A stretch of DNA of 28,878 bases. It comes from Pinguiococcus pyrenoidosus. Lineage: Eukaryota; Sar; Pinguiophyceae; Pinguiochrysidales; Pinguiochrysidaceae. Positions 3,752 to 27,609 of this stretch are shown here, in pieces. Both the position numbers and the translations under genes were made by a program. The DNA is taken from NCBI GenBank assembly GCA_019677205.1, contig JAAMXY010001167.1, positions 4,526-33,403 on the forward strand. Reading direction: 5' to 3'. The stretch's first letter is position 1. Each line of letters begins with the position of its first letter. The notes under the pieces were generated by a model. It did not search any database, had not been told where the DNA came from, and saw nothing but the letters and a program-made list of their open reading frames with translations.

Positions 3752-4781
3752 GGCGACAGGCCTCTTTGGCCGGGCCTGGCAGGGCGAGCGCGAGCGCCGG
3801 AGGAGGTCTGCGCCGCGAGAGTAGCTCTACGCGTCCGCAGTCCGCCACACGCTTGAGAAAGACGGTCTCAAAACTGGACTGCGCCGCGCACGCGTGGCTG
3901 CGCACGCCGGGAGACCAGTCCTTTCGGCGGACTCTTCGGGAGCCGCGGAAACACGACTTCGACGGCAGCTCGGTGGCGCCCAGGAGACTCGGGTCCGGGC
4001 TGGAGAAGACTAGAATGGCATTCGCGAAAAGAGGGCCGCGGAAGAGGCGCGGGCGCGCCTGGAAGCCAGACAGAGAAGCTCAGGCACGCTGGCGCTCAGG
4101 TGGCGTTGTTTCTCGTATGCACACGAACAAATGCAGCACAACGGGATTGGGACTTCTCCGCGATGAAAACAAACCTTTCACCCACGCTGGTTTGTTTTGC
4201 ATGGGAGAAGAGAAACATAGCTTTTGAAACTTATCATGGTGGCATTCGTACTTTCCGAGTATAAGACTACTTCATTGGCTCAAATATATTTTTAAAGATT
4301 AGTTGACACATATTGCTTCCACAAAAATATTCATGATAAAAAAGCATCACATTCTTGAAGACGCGTCAGACGCGCAGAAAGTATTTGCGTTGGATGCCAA
4401 GACTGCACCAATTGGCTCGCGCCCTGTCTTATCCTTCCATACTCTGGCCAGCCGAACCTTCCTGAACTACAAATGTCCCACATGACATCACGGCGCTGAT
4501 CTTATCCGCGCAACGCACAGCCAAAGAGTAACGCAGAGAAGATTCATCTCGAATACCAAAAATGGCGCCCGAAACCGGCGTGCGGGCCTGCCGCCGAAGT
4601 CGCCGTTATGGGCAGCGTGGTTGGCGGAACGCCACGCTCTCACTCCCATCAGCAGCACCGAATTCAACGTTGCATGGACCCAATGGTTGTTGCATTGGAA
4701 AGGAAGCGCCGTCGCTTTTTGTGGCCATAGTATGCCGAAAAGGCGCTGATCCGGCCCGGAAGGAGGGGGACTCTGGCAGCC
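3752..4781. other. Divergent intergenic region between PI4K (-) and WW-like gene (+)
   Basis: About 1 kb with no gene I can support. The left 500 bp is GC-rich and open in several frames, as expected from composition. An AT-rich island spans about 4225-4370. It holds an inverted CCAAT-type motif (ATTGGCT, 4274-4280) just before a TATA-like stretch (near 4282-4293). A second ATTGGCT lies near 4410. These could be promoter elements for either gene, but spacing to the predicted starts is large and no start site can be read from sequence. Confidence 0.4.
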
Positions 4782-5582: not shown

Positions 5583-6478
5583 CCTGCGCATCCGGAGAGG
5601 GACGACACGGACGTGTTGGGGAAGTTCTGGTCCTGGGCAACTGGGTAACCTCCGAGTCCGAGGGACGCTATCTGCTTGGCCCCGCCCGAATGACCCCAAC
5701 ACTTGCATTGATGTACTACTACTCTATGTGATCCACGATTTCTCCCTGACTTTCCACATCTCTGCGCCGAGGCATGGAGGTCGGCTTCAACGCTCAGTGA
5801 CGAGTCTTTTGGTGGACACACGGCGTTTGTCATCTCTGGCGAAACCCTGGAAGTCAAGGATTATCCCCCAGCGTTGACCTCAACGACCACTGCATCCCAC
5901 CACCTCCATGTCATTCCCACCGTCGAGCACGTACGCTCCATCCCCACTTGCACACGCGTCTTCTGTCCGGCGCGTCGTCCCCCAAACCGAAGCACGCCCT
6001 TGCTTCCATTCCCTCGCACGCGTCTTCTCTACGCACTGAGAATCAAAGCCAAAACAAAGAAGCCTCTTTCCGCGCCTCTTGTTCTCATCACTCGTTGCTT
6101 GAGCCGCTCCCACGCTGGAATCTACCGCTTCGGATACGGTGGAGAGCGCTACACTCGCTGAAGCAGCTCACTTGACTTGAGCGGACCCCTCTGGTGGCGC
6201 AATAAGGCCACCATCTGACTGGCAGATCGTGAAGGCACCGGCGCAAGCGGACGCGCGGCTGCGTTGGCGATCTTTGAACGGCTGACGCCACGCTCGTCTC
6301 TGTCCGCGTTGGCGCGTTCCTTGCGCGGAGATCCGCCTGCGGCCTGTGTGGCTCGCAGCGTGGTTACGCGGCGTCTGAGGAGCCAGGGGGCAAGGCAGCT
6401 GCTGAGGAAGAGCGCCGGGAAGCTGCACACCGCCGCAGAGAATCTCGCCAGCGAAGCCTGGATTCTCCCGGCAGCAGG
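5583..6478. other. Intergenic, upstream of the lumen-protein gene
   Basis: No supported gene. The stretch from about 5870 to 6120 is pyrimidine-rich and contains the 11-mer ACGCGTCTTCT twice (5954-5964 and 6018-6028). The last 200 bp before the ATG at 6479 is GC-rich and open in several frames, consistent with a 5' UTR. The small open frames on both strands have no domain and no splice partner. Confidence 0.4.
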
Positions 6479-7537
6479 ATGGCGAGCAGCTCGCGCGTCT
6501 TGCTCTGGACGTTCCTGCTTTGGTCCAGCGTCTGCGGGCTGAGACAGCCTCCCAGGATCTCAGCCGAGAAGCTGAGGATTCGAGGTGTGGCTCTGGGACT
6601 CCGGCCGGAGAGATCCGCCATGAGACTCATCGGAGCTGCCTTGGCCGCGGCGACCCTGCTGGCGCCGCTCCAGCCAGCTTCGGTCCTTGCCGCCACGGGG
6701 TACACCCGGAGGGAGAACCTCGCCATCGAGGCCAAGAAGCCTCTGCCGAAAGGCATTCCGTTCTCGGACGTCGGGGACGGGCCTCTCTCCTTCGGCAAAG
6801 CGGCGGAGGCTTCGGAGATCGCCACCGCGAGGCGAAAGATCGCCGCTCTCAAGCCGTACATGGACGAGATTGAGCGATACATCTTCACAAATGACTACGA
6901 GCCGCTCCGGGCCTTCCTCAACGTTTTCAGCCAGCAGGAAGATTCCTTTGTGAAGACCATTGATGGCGTTGCCAGCCGAGGGACCGCGGATGCGATCGCG
7001 GCCGCCGAGGCGATGGAGCACGAAGCCAAGCAGCTCTTCCTAGCGCTCGACGAGATTCGCAAGGCCGCCACGCTGGAGAAGCCGTCGGGCCTGAAGAAGG
7101 GGTACATCAAGCTGGCGCTCGCCTATGATAGGTATTTGAAAGCGAGCGACAACTTGCCGGGATACGACAAGATCGTCAGCACGGAGAAGTACTTCGCAAA
7201 CATCCCGGACGAGTGGCTTGTGTTTGACACGGAAAAGAAGCCGGAGCCGCAGGACCCGGTGATCTTCATAGAGGGGCCAGACAAGGGCAGAACAGGGGTG
7301 CTCCTCGGCTACATCACGCCCGCGAAGAATCTGGCCGCCAAGTCGCTGGAGATGGTGGAGAGCAAAGCGAGCGGCATTCCGGGCTTTCCCCGACCGAAAG
7401 GCGATGGCACGGCGTCGAAGCGCAAGGCGGTGATAAAGATGGATAACTACTTGGAAGAACCGCAGCCGGGACAGCAAGTTCTGAACGAGGTCAAGGAAGT
7501 GCCCTGCAACTTCGTAGCGCGGCAGCTAGAGTCGTAG
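6479..7537 (+). CDS. Plastid thylakoid-lumen helical protein, possibly a PSII extrinsic subunit
   Basis: Single exon, 352 aa. The N-terminus has three targeting parts: a signal peptide (1-20, VLLWTFLLWSSVCG), a basic transit-like part (21-48), and a second hydrophobic segment (49-71) ending in an A-x-A-type lumen cleavage site. The second segment has no twin Arg, so Sec-type transfer is suggested. Residues 110-245 are Ala/Glu/Lys-rich helices that could form a four-helix bundle, as in PsbQ or diatom Psb31. This resemblance is by pattern, not confident homology. Residues 257-283 contain a KOW-like turn (EGPDKGRTGVLLGY), which is odd for a lumen protein. Lumen targeting is well supported; the photosystem II role is inference. 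It could also be an assembly factor. Confidence 0.7.
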   Translation: MASSSRVLLWTFLLWSSVCGLRQPPRISAEKLRIRGVALGLRPERSAMRLIGAALAAATLLAPLQPASVLAATGYTRRENLAIEAKKPLPKGIPFSDVGDGPLSFGKAAEASEIATARRKIAALKPYMDEIERYIFTNDYEPLRAFLNVFSQQEDSFVKTIDGVASRGTADAIAAAEAMEHEAKQLFLALDEIRKAATLEKPSGLKKGYIKLALAYDRYLKASDNLPGYDKIVSTEKYFANIPDEWLVFDTEKKPEPQDPVIFIEGPDKGRTGVLLGYITPAKNLAAKSLEMVESKASGIPGFPRPKGDGTASKRKAVIKMDNYLEEPQPGQQVLNEVKEVPCNFVARQLES

Positions 7538-7901: not shown

Positions 7902-9013
7902 TTACGCATGCGCAGGAGCGAGGGCGGTCATGGTAAACCGCAGCTCCCCGGGATCCCTCGCCATGAACTGCTTTACGACCTCCACCGCATCCTGCAGCAG
8001 ACTGGACGCCGATGACGGTCCGTGATTGATGGGCCGCTTCTTTCGGCCGTCCTGAGGAAGCAGACGGAGAGCGTCAGCGAACCGACGCGACGCGACGAGG
8101 TCGTTTCGCTCCGTCTCGCCATGGTTCCTCTACGCACCAGTTCGTAGAGCGCGCCATCGACATTCACGAAAGCGACGAAGTGCGTCACGACGTTGTCTTC
8201 AATATCCACCTGAGTGGACTGGCCTTGCGAGGCTGCTTCTACATGCATGGTGTCGATCTCCTCGTCGCCTTCCAGATACGCAGCCCTTGCGAAGGTCGGG
8301 AGTGAGCAAGGCTGCAAAGCTGCTGCGGACGAGTTCAAGTGCCCACCTCTCCTCCGAATTCATCCCGGCAGTGCTATCGGCAAACATTCGGATATAGCTG
8401 TCTGGCACGGTGCCATCTTCTAGATTGTTGAGCAGCGCATGCATGATGCCCACCGTCCCGCAGGCGTTGCCCACCGTCTGCAATTCGGTGGCACCGGACG
8501 TCGAGTTACCGAGCATCGTCCCCATGAGGTCCTGCACGGCACGACGCACCTGTTGCATGTAGTAGACCTGGTCCGACACCTCTTGCCCTTCGGCTTCGAT
8601 GCGCGAGGCCTCCTCCGCTTTGTGCGCTTCCGACGCCTCGCCAATCGGGAACAGCATCACCACTGCCTTGACTGGAGTGGGCACCTAGATGCGACCACGT
8701 TAGCACCGACCGACCCTGGCGGGAGGCCTTGAGGGCTTCGAGTGAATGAGGTGCTCTTTACCATGTCTAAGGCCCAGTCTTCTACGGAGAAGACATCATG
8801 CCACTGAAGCGTATCTACAAGTCCAATGCGCCGCGAATATGCGGTCATGACCTCTGGGTTGCTCTCCAGCGGAAACCTGTAGCGACAAGTTGTGAGACGC
8901 TCCTCGGCGCTCGAGATAGCCCCCCCAAAGAAACCAATGTGCAAAACGCGTGTGCAGATCCTTTACCAACGCTTGCCGGATTCCGCCTTCTTCCCGTCGC
9001 TTTCGTCTGCCAT
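7902..9013 (-). CDS. Ubiquitin carboxyl-terminal hydrolase, UCH-L1/L3 type (peptidase C12)
   Basis: Thiol hydrolase that frees ubiquitin from small C-terminal adducts. Six exons (8967-9013, 8762-8876, 8550-8684, 8347-8477, 8138-8285, 7902-8051), with introns of 90, 77, 72, 61 and 86 bp, all GT-AG with agreeing phases, give 241 aa; human UCHL3 is 230. Each junction restores a family motif: RWFPLESNPEV, DMVPTPVKAV, MQQTVGNACGTVG, NSEERAAYLE and YELDGRK. The catalytic set is complete: oxyanion Gln99, nucleophile Cys105, His178 (HFVAFVNVDG) and Asp193. The crossover loop lies at about 148-170. The 72-bp intron is open in frame, so keeping it would add 24 residues six residues before the catalytic Cys. 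No C-terminal extension of the UCH37/BAP1 type is present. Confidence 0.93.
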
Positions 9014-9557
9014 TTTGAATCTACTCGTGGCTCTCAGGCCTCCTCTACGACTCAGGAGGCGAGTCGATGAGCGAATGACGAACGAAGGGAGGTGATCTCG
9101 TCTCGGAAAGGCGAACGGCGCTAGCTTTGGGGTTCTTTGGAGGACGGCAATTTTCACCACTATCGATAAAGACAAGCGGAAGCCGAGATCGTCCAACCAA
9201 GTAGGGGTGAAGCCAGTTGTAGATTCTGTTCTTCTAGTTTTCGTGAACATCACACGTATGGATTTGAATTGGGATGATAAACAAATAAATTATATATTGA
9301 AAATAGGCATTTATCAAAGGTTTCCCCTCTATCGCTTTTTCCTTGGTGATCTGGAGCTCAGATGGGCTGCGTAGTTGAAGCGCGTGGCGTTCACATAGAA
9401 GTCCTAGCTGGACGGGAGTGCGCACCTTCCGGAGAAACTTGTTCCGAGTTGGCGCGCGCGTGCACCTCCTGGTCTTGCTCGTTGTCCGCCGCACCTTGTC
9501 CGCAGGCCTTCCTTCACTCCTCGCTTTGGCTCTCAAAGAGGCAGGGCTCCGTTCCCG
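9014..9557. other. Divergent intergenic region (UCH / ClpS)
   Basis: Head-to-head spacer of 544 bp between UCH (-) and ClpS (+). It contains an AT-rich patch at about 9255-9325 with TATA-like sequence (AAATTATATATTGAAAA), the most AT-rich part of this region. A shared or paired promoter is plausible but not proven. Minus-strand open frames here contain no known domain. Confidence 0.4.
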
Positions 9558-10183
9558 ATGAAGTCGCAACGAAGATCGCAACTCCTTGTGGGAGGCCTGA
9601 TCCTGGCAGCCGCCAGCCTCTTGTCGGGAGTGGCTGGCCACGCGACCCGCAGCCCCAGAGTGCTTTCGTCCACCGCGTGGCTCAGACCAGTCTCTCCGCA
9701 GATGGTGTCGCTGCCAACGCCGGGAACAGGTCCGGGCCGTGGCGCAGGAGCTGGAGTTCTCGAGAAGGAGCCCATGCAGAAGAAGGATCCACTCGCCATC
9801 GGGTTCGTACTCGCGATGCAATGGCTCCTGACTCTTGCGGAAACCGCGCAAAGCTCTCGATCTAAGAAACTGTTGCTGTTGTATTGCTTTCTTTATTTGT
9901 TTTGACTTTCCCTTTGGGTTTTCGCGTGAGCAGAGACGAGGCATCGAGGAATGATGGCATGTTCCAGGTGCTTCTGTTTAATGATGAGGTGAACACGCGA
10001 GAGTATGTGGCCAGATGCCTCGTAGTAGTCTGCGGTCTCGCGGAGGGGGACGCCTTCTCAATCATGCACAAGGCACACCGAGAGGGCTGGGCTATCATTG
10101 GAATCTGGGGCTCGGAGGTCGCGGAGATGTACACGAAGATGCTGCAGTCCAAGGGTCTCAGCGTGGATATGTCGGAAGCATGA
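9558..10183 (+). CDS. clpS: Plastid-targeted ClpS N-degron adaptor (ClpS2-like)
   Basis: ClpS delivers N-degron substrates to the Clp protease. Exon 1 is 9558-9802 and exon 2 is 9934-10183, joined by a 131-bp intron with phase 2 on both sides and a long T-rich tract before the acceptor. The product is 164 aa. Residues 9-27 are a signal peptide (LLVGGLILAAASLLSGVAG) followed by a Ser/Pro/Gly-rich transit-like stretch to about 85. The ClpS core is 90-160: FQVLLFNDEVNTREYV, then HKAHREG with the substrate-pocket His, then EVAEMY. The pattern NT..YVA.CL is closer to cyanobacterial ClpS2 than to E. coli ClpS. The usual gatekeeper Met is Arg (NTRE), which should change N-end specificity. The donor (GTTCGT) is weak, so the exact exon 1 end is less certain. 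Confidence 0.8.
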
Positions 10184-10499
10184 TCAACCGCCTCTTGCCT
10201 CTCCTGCTCCGCGCCGGGCGCGCCGGGCCGGGCGCGGAGAACGACCACCAGTAGTATGTTGTGGACATGTGCATTTTCACGGCACAGAGTGTATGTGGCA
10301 CAGATTGCCCGCTCGGCTCCAGGGACAGAGGATCTGCGAGAAGCTACGCGATGCGCGAAGTCCGGAAGGAGCTTGGATCGTGGCGTTGGAAGGCCACCAT
10401 TTTGAGGAGGAGGACCAAACGAAAAACAGGAAAACACCCACATCAAAGAAGGAAGAAAAGGAATCTGCTTCTTGCTCGCTCATCCTCGATGTGGCTGTT
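10184..10499. other. Convergent intergenic region (ClpS / Ste24)
   Basis: Holds the 3' ends of ClpS (+) and Ste24 (-). It contains a very GC-rich self-complementary stretch at about 10211-10240, built from repeated GGGCGCG/CGCGCC units, which could fold as a hairpin. No gene is supported. The long plus-strand open frame starting at 10098 is antisense to Ste24. Confidence 0.45.
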
Positions 10500-12503
10500 T
10501 TATTGCGTCTTCTCCCGTTTGACTTTGTCATGGGTGATGGCACGGAGGCGCTGGATCAACGGCGGATGCGTGTGGTTGAAGGCGCTGTACCACGGGTCGG
10601 GGTCCAAGTTCGACATGTTCTCGAGGCTCAGCTTCAGCAAGCCACGCTCCAGCCCGTCCGCATGCCCACAACGCGACGCGAAGCGATCAGCTTCGAACTC
10701 CTTGCGCCGGGTCTCCAAGGTGTTGATGTAGCCAAATGCCGTCAGAACCGGGGCCCAGATGGTTCGGATGAAAAGGTTCAGGCCCACAATCAAGTTCTGG
10801 TCGGCGAATCCAAAGGCCCCGTATATCTCCGCATCGTTGCGCACCAGCGCAAAGCAGTACAGCGTCGCCAGGGAGAAGGCCTGGACGACCACGAAGTTCT
10901 GGATGATGTGGCCATGCTTCCAATGCCCAAACTCGTGGCAGAGAACCGCGATCAGCTCCGAGTTCGTCACCTGAGTCAGCAGGGTGTCGAAAAGGACGAC
11001 TCTCTTGTCCTTAAAAAGCCCGAAGAAGAACGCGTTGGAGTGGGCGGATCTCTTCGATCCATCCATGACAAAGATCTTCGTCACGGGAAATTGGACTTCA
11101 GGCTGCGCCGCCACCTGCTCGATCTCGGCTTTCAAGGACCGGTCCTCCAGCGGCGTGAAGGTGTAAAACAACGGCATGATCAGCGTCGGCGCTATGACGG
11201 TCAGGGAAAGCATGATCGCCGCGCCAAACACCCACACGTAGACGAAGAAGAGATCGCCTCGTCCCTCGATGTCCGCCCAGCTTGCAACGCCCAAGAGCCC
11301 CGCGAGAATGGCCGACCCCAGCGTCAGTTGCAGAGCGAGGCTCTTGACAATATCCATCACGAACGTGGGCACCGTGGTCTTGTTGAACCCATGCCTCGCT
11401 TCCACGGAGAACGTGCTGTAGGCGTTCCACGGCACTTCCGCCAGCGCCTCGATGATGCTGCATATCTGAGCGAAGGCCACGGCGTGAAGGATCGGCCAGC
11501 TACTCGCTTGCACGCCAAACACCAGCAGGAAGCTCTTCGTCTGGTCCCAGATGAAGGGAGAGAAGCCGGCGAGGAGCAGCGCCGTGTCCAGCACCCTCGA
11601 CCAGAGGCTGTAGCAGATATTGTACTGCATCGAGTCGGCATTGTACCGGAAGGTCTTCGTCTCGGTGGACTGCAGCTTCTCGAGGATGCTCTGCGGTTTC
11701 TTCTCCTGGTCCTTCTGTGTCGTCTTCGATGCCGGCCTGCCGCTTTCACCAGGAGCGGTGGCCACGTCTTCCACCGCCACGGCCGTCGCACTCGAGGGAG
11801 CTGGCAGCGACTCCAACAACGAGCCGAGCAGCGCCTTTTGCAGCGTCTCCTTCTTGCGGTTCGCCACCTGCAGCTTCCGAGAGGAGACCTCGCTGCGCAG
11901 CTCGTGGTACCCAAGTCCGTGCACAAAGTCCTCGACTTCAGCCTCGCTTCCGAAGCGACCACGGTCATTCTAAAGTTGGGTTCCGTAGCGACTCCGTCAG
12001 ATATCCAGGACAGGAAGCTGCCATTTACCAGCCAGACGAACGCTGCATCTCATCGCCTACCTCCTGCCCAGAGGAACCTGTTGGTCCGCCGCCGTTGTCT
12101 TCGGCTCCGCCTGAAGCTGCGGCCGCATCCCTCTCGTCAATGCTTCCGGTGCTTCCGGTGGCGTCGCCTGAGCTCTTTAGAGTTGCCGCCACCTCTGGCC
12201 GCTCGGTGATCTCCACAGCCGAGGAGAAGACGGCCAGCTCCTCGGGCACCTTGCCTTGCAGCAGCTGAATGCGCCAGTACTGCCTGAGCATGAGATCTAT
12301 CCACGGCGGTTAGTTCCTCCTGGCGTTCGAGATTTGCAGCTGGAGAACACCAGGCAAGTTCCAGGAGACTCACAAGTCTCGAAGGCCCAGAGAAGGGTGC
12401 CGAAGAGCACAGCAAACTCCAGGTAAGGAATCTGCGGAGCCGTCGCTCCATCCTGCGTATACAGCAGCTCCCATCGGGGTAGCGAGCTGCGCCACCAGCC
12501 CAT
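10500..12503 (-). CDS. STE24: Ste24-type CAAX prenyl endopeptidase with large N-terminal insert
   Basis: Zinc metalloprotease of the ER/nuclear membrane (M48A) that removes -aaX from prenylated proteins. Three exons, 12374-12503, 12061-12296 and 10500-11969, with introns of 77 and 91 bp and agreeing phases, give 611 aa against 475 in human ZMPSTE24. Residues 28-46 form the first membrane helix and match the family start. HEFGH (467-471) supplies the zinc His pair and Glu, and EFEAD (Glu548) the third ligand. KRSAHSNAFFFGLF and HTHPPLIQRL are typical family blocks. Between the first helix and the region aligning to DSETFEKSRLY sits an extra segment of about 150 aa. Its first part is Ala/Gly/Ser-rich and its middle (about 140-173) resembles a SAP motif. 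The family call is secure; the exact end of exon 2 (GAG|GTAGGC) is the weakest junction. Confidence 0.92.
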
Positions 12504-24567: not shown

Positions 24568-25137
24568 GGCGAAGAACGCGCGCGTCTGTGGCGCAGGGCT
24601 CAAGCCAGTTTGTAGCCACCAGCTTTCTCGTCTTCCAATGCACCTAAAATATAGCTTGATTAATTCCGTGTCGAATGAGCGACGGGGATTGGCTGATGGA
24701 CTAGTCCGGATCGATCAGGATCGACGTTGACATCTGCTTTCGCGCGCAAGAATGAGACGATGCACGGTGGGCGATCCAGCAACCAAATGCATGGATCGCG
24801 CCGCATTCGCGATCCCGTGGACGTGCCTGGTCTAGGATTCTGTTGATTTTTTACCTCTTCAATGGAACAGATGAATTAAGAGAGAGAGAGAGAGAGAGAG
24901 AGAGACACAGAGAGAGAGAGAGAGTAAGAGAGAGTAAGAGAGAGAAAGAGAGAACGAACAAGAGAGACAAAAAGGCAGAAGAGAGAGGGGGGGAGGGGGA
25001 ACAGCAGAGAGGCAACGAGACAAGAGTGAGAGAAAAGAGGAAGAAGGAGAGGAAAGGAGACATCCGGGACGTCTGCTCTGCAACGAGTTGTAGAGGGGAA
25101 CTCGGCAGATCTTCCGCATACCGTTGTTCTGCGCAAT
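24568..25137. other. Divergent spacer (RPB10 / glycosyltransferase fusion)
   Basis: Left half holds CG-poor sequence and small inverted repeats around GGATCGATC (near 24710-24725), of unclear meaning. The right half is dominated by the purine tract listed separately, which lies within the 260 bp before the ATG at 25138. No gene is supported; the Arg/Glu dipeptide open frame here is a repeat artefact. Confidence 0.45.
24878..25060 (+). repeat. (GA)n microsatellite and polypurine tract
   Basis: Starts with about 15 uninterrupted AG dinucleotides and decays through interrupted AGAG blocks into a G/A-rich tract of about 180 bp. It ends about 75 bp before the start codon of the glycosyltransferase fusion, so it is in that gene's 5' UTR or promoter. 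Long polypurine tracts can form triplexes and often act in promoters; no function is shown here. Confidence 0.9.
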
Positions 25138-27609
25138 ATGATCCGTCGCGCTTGGACGCCTCAACCTCTCGGAAGGCCTCGGCGCTCCTACCAAGCTTGT
25201 CTGGGAGCCTTGGCATTCGTGGTAGGCCTTGGCGTGCTCGTTTGCTCATCCATTCTGCTCGTCCGAGGGACAAGAGGCTTCGAGTCTCCTCTCTGGAGGT
25301 CTGGCTGGAGTGCATACGCTTCCCGGGGCTTCTTGAGAAGCGTTGTGGATAAGCAAGCTTTTGAAGAGGCTCAGAAGTGGAGCCATGCTATCATTGACCT
25401 GGGGGAGCGGCTGAGGCGACCGACGCCTTCTCCGTATAGCACGACCGACAGCCTTGACGACGCGCATATCGAGTGGTTTCCTGAAGAACTGTCGCGAGAA
25501 GAGCTCGGCAAGGTCTTGCAAGCTAGGGGATACAAGACAGGCGTGGAAGTGGGCGTGCAGCGCGGCGACTTCTCCGCAGCTGTGCTGAAAGAGTGGCATG
25601 GTGCGAAGCTTTATGTCCTGGTCGACCTCTGGAGGGAGCAGACGAACTACGTCGACGGCGCAAATGTCCCGAGCGTAAAGCAGGAGGCTTTCCTGCGTGA
25701 GGCCGTCGAGAAGACACGTCGGTTTGGAGCAGAAGTGAGACTCTGCCAGGACTTCGCGACCCAATGCGCCCTGCGCTACCCGGATGGCTTCTTCGATTTC
25801 ATCTACATCGATGCTCGTCATGACTACTTGAGTGTCCTGGAGGACTTGGTGATGTGGCTTCCAAAGCTGCGCCGGGGGGGGCTGATTGCTGGCCATGATT
25901 ACATCGATTCACGAGCCAGCATCGCTGCTGAGCCCAACCGGCGGAGCTACTGGGAGATCAATTGGGACGCCTCGCTGGACACGACTCTTCGCGCATCGAA
26001 AGGCGCGGTGAACGACTTCTTCGGTCTCCGCGGAGATCCGATCCAGCAGATCGATGTGCAGATACCCTGGAGAACCTGGGCCGTGGACTACGCGAGAGAA
26101 AAGCCAGCTCCGGGGACCTTCCCGCGTGCTTTGCACTTCCTATCGGCGTCTCCCGGACTCGCTACGCAATCCGCAGAGATGGCAGGCGCAGACCTGGCGA
26201 TGATCACAGAGTGGGAAGAGACGCATCCACGCTGGCCAGTAGTGATATGGACGAACAGCCTGGTTCGCCTCGCCTTCGAACCCGAGCTTGTTGAGGAGCT
26301 GGTGCTGCTGGAATCGCAGAAGTTGCTCAACTCGGTCCTCCGCTTGCTGATCCTGTACGAGTATGGTGGAGCGGCGGTTCCTCAGGAGATACATCCGATA
26401 TTGGATCTGGAGAGGTATCTAAAGGTAGCAGAATCATCGGGCAAAGGTTTTTGGAAGGGCTTGGGCTTGGGGCTCGATATAGAGCAGCCGGCCAGTCAAG
26501 ACCCGTACACGCTCACCAGCGATAACGTCATGGAGGAGAGGAGGATGGTCTTGGCTGCGATCCGGACGAGTTCTACGCTGTCGCAAGTGCTTGCGCAGCT
26601 TGTTGGCGCGAGCTTCCGAGACGCTTTGGAAAGCAGCAAGCGTCGTCCTCTCGCGGCAAAGGATCCGATCCTGCCGCTGCTGACTCATCAAGGCGAGGAA
26701 AAGAACGCCAGCGCCTTGGCAACCAATATTCACTTTGTATCTACGGGTAGTCGCGCGACCTTTGCGGACATCGACTGTTGTGCCATTCGATCGGCGGCAT
26801 CGCACAATCCGCAAGCTAGAATCATTGTGTTCATGTCCGGAGAAGCTGGGGACCGTGTCGCGAGTGCTGATCGCTTTGCCGATCAGTGTCTCGGCGATCT
26901 TTCCAATGCTCACGTGGTCTACTTCAGGTTTGAGGACATTTTCGCGGACACTCCGTTCGCGGCGTGGTACAGAAACCTCCCAAGTACTGCTAGTGACAAG
27001 TGCTACACAAAGCAGAATCTTGCAAACGCGGCAAGGATAGCGGTCGTTTACAAGTTCGGAGGCGTCTACCTGGACCTGGACATGATTTCGATGGCGCCAA
27101 TGGATGACGTCTCAGACCGTGGACTTGCGTGGCAAAGTTCTGACTTGTCGCTGGTGAACAACGCCTTCGTGTCCTTCCGGAAGCCCAGAGACCCGCTGCT
27201 CATGGAATACATGCTTCGATTCATTGCGGAGTTCAACAATTGCAGATGGGCCTGGCAGGGTCCACGGCGACTAACCGACACTCTCAAGGCCTTGGGATGC
27301 TTTGCCCCGAAAGCTGATGGGATGGTCGCTGAGATTTGCGTGGGCTTGGAGCTGTACAGCCGCAAAGCCTTCTACCCATACGAGTTTAATTCCGATAGGC
27401 TGTTCCAAGTCGTAGACGACGACAAATGGCAACGGGTCTTCCAGACATTCGTGCATGAGCCGAGAACGCACACCGTGCACCTGTGGACGCATGCGCATGC
27501 TGAGAGACTAAAAAGAAGTGGCCCAGGCGCCACCACCATCTTCGAGCGCTTGATGGTGCAGGCATGCGGCGTTTCCTGGCGAGAGAAGAAGCTCGGAATG
27601 GGAGCTTGA
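25138..27609 (+). CDS. Membrane-anchored fusion: SAM methyltransferase, degenerate glycosyltransferase, active-type GT32/Gb3-synthase-like glycosyltransferase
   Basis: Single exon, 823 aa. A short basic N-terminus and one membrane helix (about 19-42) predict a type II Golgi protein. Residues 125-260 form a class I SAM methyltransferase of the Methyltransf_24 type: GVEVGVQRGD (135-144, SAM loop), then DFIYIDARHDY and the GGLIAGHDY strand end. Residues 330-490 resemble a GT32-type domain (HFLSASP, PVVIWTN, LYEYGG) but the DxD site is replaced (GGAAVPQE, 410-417). Residues 529-790 are a full DXD glycosyltransferase: HFVSTGSR, YKFGGVYLDLDMI (Asp646/Asp648), NNAFVSF, WAWQGPRRLT and HLWTHA, matching the alpha-1,4-galactosyltransferase (Gb3 synthase) plan. 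It probably adds and methylates sugars on glycans or glycolipids; donor and acceptor are unknown. Confidence 0.88.
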   Translation: MIRRAWTPQPLGRPRRSYQACLGALAFVVGLGVLVCSSILLVRGTRGFESPLWRSGWSAYASRGFLRSVVDKQAFEEAQKWSHAIIDLGERLRRPTPSPYSTTDSLDDAHIEWFPEELSREELGKVLQARGYKTGVEVGVQRGDFSAAVLKEWHGAKLYVLVDLWREQTNYVDGANVPSVKQEAFLREAVEKTRRFGAEVRLCQDFATQCALRYPDGFFDFIYIDARHDYLSVLEDLVMWLPKLRRGGLIAGHDYIDSRASIAAEPNRRSYWEINWDASLDTTLRASKGAVNDFFGLRGDPIQQIDVQIPWRTWAVDYAREKPAPGTFPRALHFLSASPGLATQSAEMAGADLAMITEWEETHPRWPVVIWTNSLVRLAFEPELVEELVLLESQKLLNSVLRLLILYEYGGAAVPQEIHPILDLERYLKVAESSGKGFWKGLGLGLDIEQPASQDPYTLTSDNVMEERRMVLAAIRTSSTLSQVLAQLVGASFRDALESSKRRPLAAKDPILPLLTHQGEEKNASALATNIHFVSTGSRATFADIDCCAIRSAASHNPQARIIVFMSGEAGDRVASADRFADQCLGDLSNAHVVYFRFEDIFADTPFAAWYRNLPSTASDKCYTKQNLANAARIAVVYKFGGVYLDLDMISMAPMDDVSDRGLAWQSSDLSLVNNAFVSFRKPRDPLLMEYMLRFIAEFNNCRWAWQGPRRLTDTLKALGCFAPKADGMVAEICVGLELYSRKAFYPYEFNSDRLFQVVDDDKWQRVFQTFVHEPRTHTVHLWTHAHAERLKRSGPGATTIFERLMVQACGVSWREKKLGMGA

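Follow-up and report, generated by a model that had tools for sequence, protein, structure and literature searches.

In the stretch of Pinguiococcus pyrenoidosus DNA analysed here (the window; 28,878 nucleotides, positions 4,526 to 33,403 of contig JAAMXY010001167.1), a single open reading frame codes for a methyltransferase (MT), a degenerate GT32-derived domain and a DxD-bearing glycosyltransferase (GT) of the GT32/Gb3-synthase type. The DxD motif is lost in the middle domain and kept in the C-terminal one, the pair formed by the first two domains recurs in other proteins, and one of these relatives carries an intact DxD. An N-terminal membrane anchor and GT-A folds for the middle and C-terminal domains are predicted. 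The reading that we prefer, with a little under an even chance in our estimation, is that the C-terminal domain adds a sugar to a glycan in the Golgi lumen, that the middle domain would hold the glycan, probably without catalysing, and that the MT would O-methylate the newly made end, sugar transfer presumably preceding methylation. The features concerned are:

25138..27609, forward strand: open reading frame of 823 amino acids, MT, degenerate GT32 and DxD-bearing GT32/Gb3-type
25201..25263, forward strand: hydrophobic stretch, residues 22-42, preceded by a basic N-terminus; predicted type II signal anchor (Kyte-Doolittle scan)
25489..26091, forward strand: MT domain, residues 118-318, Pfam core 136-255 (Pfam and MT profile)
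25540..25566, forward strand: GVEVGVQRG, residues 135-143, the region that we take to be motif I of S-adenosylmethionine (SAM) binding (alignment)
25807..25827, forward strand: IDARHDY, residues 224-230 (alignment)
25888..25902, forward strand: AGHDY, residues 251-255, likely a metal or catalytic site (alignment)
26107..26697, forward strand: middle domain, GT32-derived, predicted GT-A fold (profiles; fold matches over residues 324-495)
26365..26388, forward strand: GGAAVPQE, residues 410-417, where DxD-bearing GT32s show GGxYxDxD
26719..27591, forward strand: C-terminal GT32/Gb3-synthase-type domain, residues 528-818 (Pfam and profiles)
27073..27081, forward strand: DLD, residues 646-648, DxD motif (alignment)

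The frame runs for 823 codons without a stop, and the longest stop-free run in 100 random windows from a first-order Markov model was 385 codons (mean 291). Frame length alone is no proof, because the window holds long frames without an evident gene, like the one of 703 codons (10098-12209, forward strand) which opposes a 474-codon frame that looks like a real gene; therefore, the case rests on the domains. With the whole protein as the query, Pfam matches were obtained to Gly_transf_sug (PF04488; E 7.9e-17, best stretch residues 548-659), Methyltransf_24 (PF13578; E 4.7e-14, residues 136-255) and Gb3_synth (PF04572; E 6.8e-12, residues 683-811). Pfam and profiles agreed on three domains in the order MT, middle, C-terminal GT, which confirmed the original prediction, and the uninterrupted frame fits its supposition of one exon. 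The observation holds up and, if anything, said a little too little, since the first two domains constitute a recurring family; the interpretation given to it is plausible and partly supported. No NCBIfam family was matched by the protein, and no solved structure matched the whole 823-residue sequence.

Concerning the integrity of the gene, the frame could be an artefact of the gene model, with an anchor-MT-middle gene and a GT gene lying in one frame and separated by a promoter, an intron or an alternative start. The presence of the 703-codon frame and the absence of a third domain after the middle one in P0003, the nearest relative, whose MT is 58% identical, speak in favour of it; however, all three domains share one frame that exceeds the random maximum, no second anchor stands ahead of the C-terminal domain, and third-position GC is alike across all parts of the frame (0.61-0.71). 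We consider such an artefact quite unlikely. The membrane anchor, also claimed earlier, is predicted from residues 24-42, the most hydrophobic 19-residue stretch of the protein (mean 2.68), and the predicted type II anchor, together with the enzyme types, suggests a Golgi location.

The nature of the middle domain would not be settled by Pfam alone, because the region on its own scored 18.6 bits against PF04488, below the cut-off of 23. The same region scored 60.2 bits with a profile of five relatives that excluded the window protein, where 200 shuffled sequences reached 5.5 at most, and 20.6 bits with one built from five GT32 domains, four of them carrying DxD and the fifth NCD, where the best shuffle reached 3.4. 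When profiles were compared with each other, the middle family matched the five GT32 domains with a probability of 98.2, versus 0.1 for the GT34 and MT controls. At residues 410-417 the sequence reads GGAAVPQE, so the loss of DxD was correctly perceived in the original prediction, and the GT-A fold on which that prediction had staked the middle region was recovered, albeit in a low-confidence model. On these profile and model grounds, the middle domain is GT32-derived, sharing descent and a predicted fold with GT32, and is not a GT32 enzyme. The two halves of the protein were folded separately, with models built from 6 and 5 sequences, because a full-length alignment put the GT of the paralogues onto the middle domain. 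A recent tandem duplication of the GT within the gene was not supported, as the middle family was closer to other GT32s (98.2) than to the Gb3-type group (43.4), which is the group containing the C-terminal domain. Plain identity does not separate these origins (middle versus C-terminal, 25.8%; middle versus P0003, 28.8%).

The C-terminal part alone scored 48.5 bits with PF04488 (cut-off 23) and 48.8 bits with PF04572 (cut-off 22.3). Paralogues of this domain are present in the same genome, and its DLD, in the context GGVYLDLD, aligned with DTD, DTD and DHD in three paralogous domains and with DAG in a fourth; a retained DxD in a domain of Gb3-synthase type, as had been proposed, is thus borne out. 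A GT-A fold was predicted also here; a solved Gb3 synthase was not among the fold matches listed, an absence that is uninformative. The same Pfam matches and the DxD liken the domain to the GT32 (Och1) and Gb3-synthase-type GTs, from which the window protein differs in having the GT fused to two more domains.

Two other frames of this genome are related to these domains. One paralogue (L010; G000 contig C179; L008 634-1440 and 1489-2301) lies in a 2060-codon frame with tandem Gb3-type GT domains, the first with ALDAG replacing the DxD and the second with YLDTD, and then a GT92/GT2-like domain; it is a second pair of degenerate and intact GT in one chain of this genome. One set of its E-values derives from a profile trained on L010 itself. 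The other (L006; G000 contig C41, minus strand), a 626-codon frame, has a GT32-like domain with VLDAD at 21.8 bits, just below the cut-off, and an upstream stretch, GGVVVLNPF, that may be a further degenerate GT32. As a degenerate-plus-intact tandem it was rejected, the first half not being significant (domain E 20).

The MT domain belongs by score to Methyltransf_24 (53.6 bits, cut-off 26.3), and the MT profile that also located it was trained without the window protein. The SAM-site columns are kept, 19 of them being invariant across 15 proteins including that of the window, and the invariant columns of the MT include D225 and H228, in IDARHDY, and D254, in GHDY. Its best profile match in the PDB was an unspecific O-methyltransferase (3ntv, 2.7e-4), and SpnH gave a weak one (E 6e-4, with no single stretch significant alone). 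The matches of the predicted fold include the sugar O-methyltransferases MycF, SpnH and NovP, with which unrelated methyltransferases tie. The likeness to these three would be one of MT-domain fold, plus the profile match for SpnH; they are bacterial and act on antibiotic sugars (a role that for NovP we assume), and the similarity is low and common to many other methyltransferases.

These matches bear on the nature of the methyl acceptor, which could be a lipid, a protein or a small molecule instead of a sugar. Such an acceptor would suit the breadth of the Methyltransf_24 family, the unspecific character of 3ntv and the fact that L026, the second strong match in the genome, also hits the Methyltransf_3 O-methyltransferase family; but this type of MT is repeatedly fused to GTs of several families, and sugar O-methyltransferases appear among both the fold matches and the weak profile matches. 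We think it very unlikely that the acceptor is not a sugar.

The relatives analysed were 53 proteins, two matched in a whole-protein search, which scored the 7995 candidates sharing most words, and 51 in a search with the MT part. An MT followed by a match to the GT32-like profile was found in eight of the 53 (P0003, P0004, P0005, which is partial, P0006, P0007, P0009, P0012 and P0013); five of these helped to train that profile, and the matches outside the training set were P0004 (1.1e-19), P0005 (6e-10) and P0013 (1.1e-6). P0007 is from Amoebophrya sp. A120. The reversed order, GT32 then MT, occurred in four (P0001, P0031, P0035 and P0040). A Gb3-type domain after the MT-middle pair was present in none of the 53 relatives, hence in one protein out of 54, as judged with a profile trained on the window protein and the paralogues of its genome. 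Of the fusion that the original prediction suggested looking for in related algae, the first two domains were thus met together in other proteins, with the third behind them in none of those found. P0003, P0004, P0006, P0007, P0009 and P0012 share the MT and the middle domain with the window protein, several of them with a hydrophobic N-terminus as judged by eye; they differ in lacking a DxD-bearing GT behind the middle domain, the DxD of which is intact only in P0004. P0001, P0035 and P0040, likely bacterial from the character of their sequences, combine the same two families in a single chain, with the differences that the GT32 comes first and has its DxD, that there is no third domain and that no N-terminal anchor is apparent by eye.

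Among the 51 matches of the MT search, 16 list PF05637 (which we take to be GT34), five list PF04488 and seven list PF05050, which some source names describe as FkbM-type; this MT seems to be commonly fused with other glycan enzymes. This is pertinent to the idea that the activities are co-located without being coupled, the MT acting on sugars that other enzymes of the Golgi produce, and the C-terminal GT being fused only for the sake of shared anchoring, with the two reactions on different residues. P0006, P0009 and P0012 would fit it, as they have the MT, the middle domain and a hydrophobic N-terminal stretch (judged by eye) without a DxD-bearing GT, so that the MT there would use the product of another enzyme. 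On the other hand, the recurrence of GT-MT pairs with several GT types, PF05637 and PF04488 among them, suggests that the pairing matters. We regard uncoupled activities as unlikely, though deserving some weight.

Some relatives have other arrangements. P0003 (1019 amino acids) contains two MT-middle units, 93% identical, which are either a tandem gene array merged by annotation or a true repeat. P0004 (957 amino acids) has an intact GT32 after the MT and a sub-cut-off sulfotransferase match upstream, so that its chain may unite several domains that modify glycans. P0031 (713 amino acids) has two GT32 domains (the first with DCD, the second with NCD) and then the MT, which may mark another stage on the way to a degenerate GT next to this type of MT. 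In 49 viral loci and ten genome loci, no frame had both MT and GT32 profiles (none of 63 MT frames; two GT frames); the viral contig L045 has separate GT32-like and Methyltransf_24 frames (5782-6417 and 8667-9245), about 2.2 kb apart.

The history of the DxD was followed in an alignment of seven proteins, which excluded P0005 and P0013. The column is degenerate in six of them (the window protein, P0003, P0006, P0009, P0012 and, as DLE, P0007) and intact, as DTD, in P0004. A tree of 57 MT domains, with the distant P0050-P0053 left out and seven viral rows from six hand-chosen loci, grouped the window protein with P0003 (100/89), then P0004 (95/56), with P0007 and P0013 alongside (94/58). Taken at face value, the tree would mean two or more losses of the DxD, because regain is unlikely. 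On the preferred reading, the ancestor would have been a methyltransferase-GT32 enzyme, the GT of which would have lost its donor chemistry and stayed as an acceptor-holding module, and that this lineage would then have acquired a second, DxD-bearing GT. The middle domain has changed faster than the MT (28.8% versus 58.7% identity between the window protein and P0003; 53.3% versus 82.9% between P0006 and P0009), which fits a release from catalysis.

Several results weigh against the successive extension and methylation of a glycan by this protein, or against the history just given. No protein other than that of the window was found to have the three-domain order, and when the C-terminal region was compared with proteins of 453-1440 amino acids, none of 2883 candidates matched at E 1e-3. 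The specificity of the C-terminal GT is not deducible, because only paralogues of the same genome were at hand. The MT fold matches, as said, are tied with unrelated methyltransferases, and the structure models are weak, with a mean predicted local distance difference test (pLDDT) of 57.5 and 62.7 and values partly below 50 in the middle domain. The DLE of P0007 might still bind metal. The branches that carry the repeated loss have values of only 56-58 in the Shimodaira-Hasegawa-like approximate likelihood ratio test (SH-aLRT), the MT-then-GT32-like order requires two changes on the tree and one change in 10% of the bootstrap trees, and drift would account equally well for the higher rate of change in the middle domain.

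The principle of a GT-MT protein making a methylated glycan end is not new, for the A064R protein of chlorovirus PBCV-1 offers a working analogy: it comprises two rhamnosyltransferases and a methyltransferase and, when assayed, builds and 2-O-methylates an N-glycan end (PMC9614988). In domain architecture both proteins have two GT domains and a SAM methyltransferase; A064R is GT-GT-MT with both GTs active, whereas the window protein is MT-GT-GT with one GT lacking DxD, and so is not of the A064R type. The same paper predicts that most PBCV-1 GTs are soluble proteins of the cytoplasm and names two exceptions, neither of which is A064R; the window protein has a predicted anchor. The second domain of A064R is metal-independent and had been overlooked by sequence analysis (PMC9614988), which gives some basis to the idea that the middle domain is a still-active, metal-independent GT and that the window protein has three activities. 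The retention of the domain and of its predicted GT-A core would agree with this; yet the replacement residues differ from one relative to another (HPS, DPS, DFR, ARG, PQE), unlike a new conserved site, and the intact DTD of P0004 suggests an ancestral chemistry of the DxD type. We give a metal-free activity little credence.

A search limited to the titles and abstract beginnings of open-licence literature, including that on pseudo-glycosyltransferases and glycan O-methyltransferase, found no description of this fusion of MT, degenerate GT32 and GT. This agrees with the earlier remark that no enzyme with this order had been described, to which the GT-GT-MT precedent of A064R must be opposed. 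O-methylated sugars have been reported on the N-glycans of several microalgae. A 2019 study of the green alga Chlorella vulgaris stated that the N-glycan O-methyltransferase would first need identifying (PMC6344472), a 2022 moss paper that much was still to be learnt about the responsible enzymes (PMC8773788), and the main text of a 2025 review on microalgal N-glycosylation does not use the word 'methyltransferase' (PMC12507850). The window protein is a candidate for an enzyme of the type responsible for methylated algal glycans. The MT-GT32-like family supplies concrete sequences, and its candidacy concerns primarily its own lineages, since Chlorella and moss are far from this alga. More broadly, and as a tentative proposal that we deem less probable than not by a clear distance, the MT-GT32-like fusions would be the missing Golgi glycan O-methyltransferases of several lineages of algae and alveolates. 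An active GT would have been converted, on more than one occasion, into a module that holds the glycan for the MT fused to it, and in this alga a second GT would have been added, so that one protein would both grow the chain and methyl-cap it. If true, this would be a clear case of a GT retained after loss of its catalytic motif, beside a partner able to use its acceptor site.

As for the genome setting, the assembly that holds the window has 23.7 Mb in 768 contigs. Light-harvesting proteins were matched at 29 places, two of them best matching ochrophyte-type chains (presumably from diatoms and eustigmatophytes), and a phycobilisome linker gave no match in the genome. These results suggest an ochrophyte-like alga, and the lead of a red alga with methylated polysaccharide was rejected, as no linker was matched; the frame at 6479-7537 gave no useful hint of the organism. 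A GA-rich simple repeat, at positions 24880-24955 of the window, precedes the start codon by about 180 bases.
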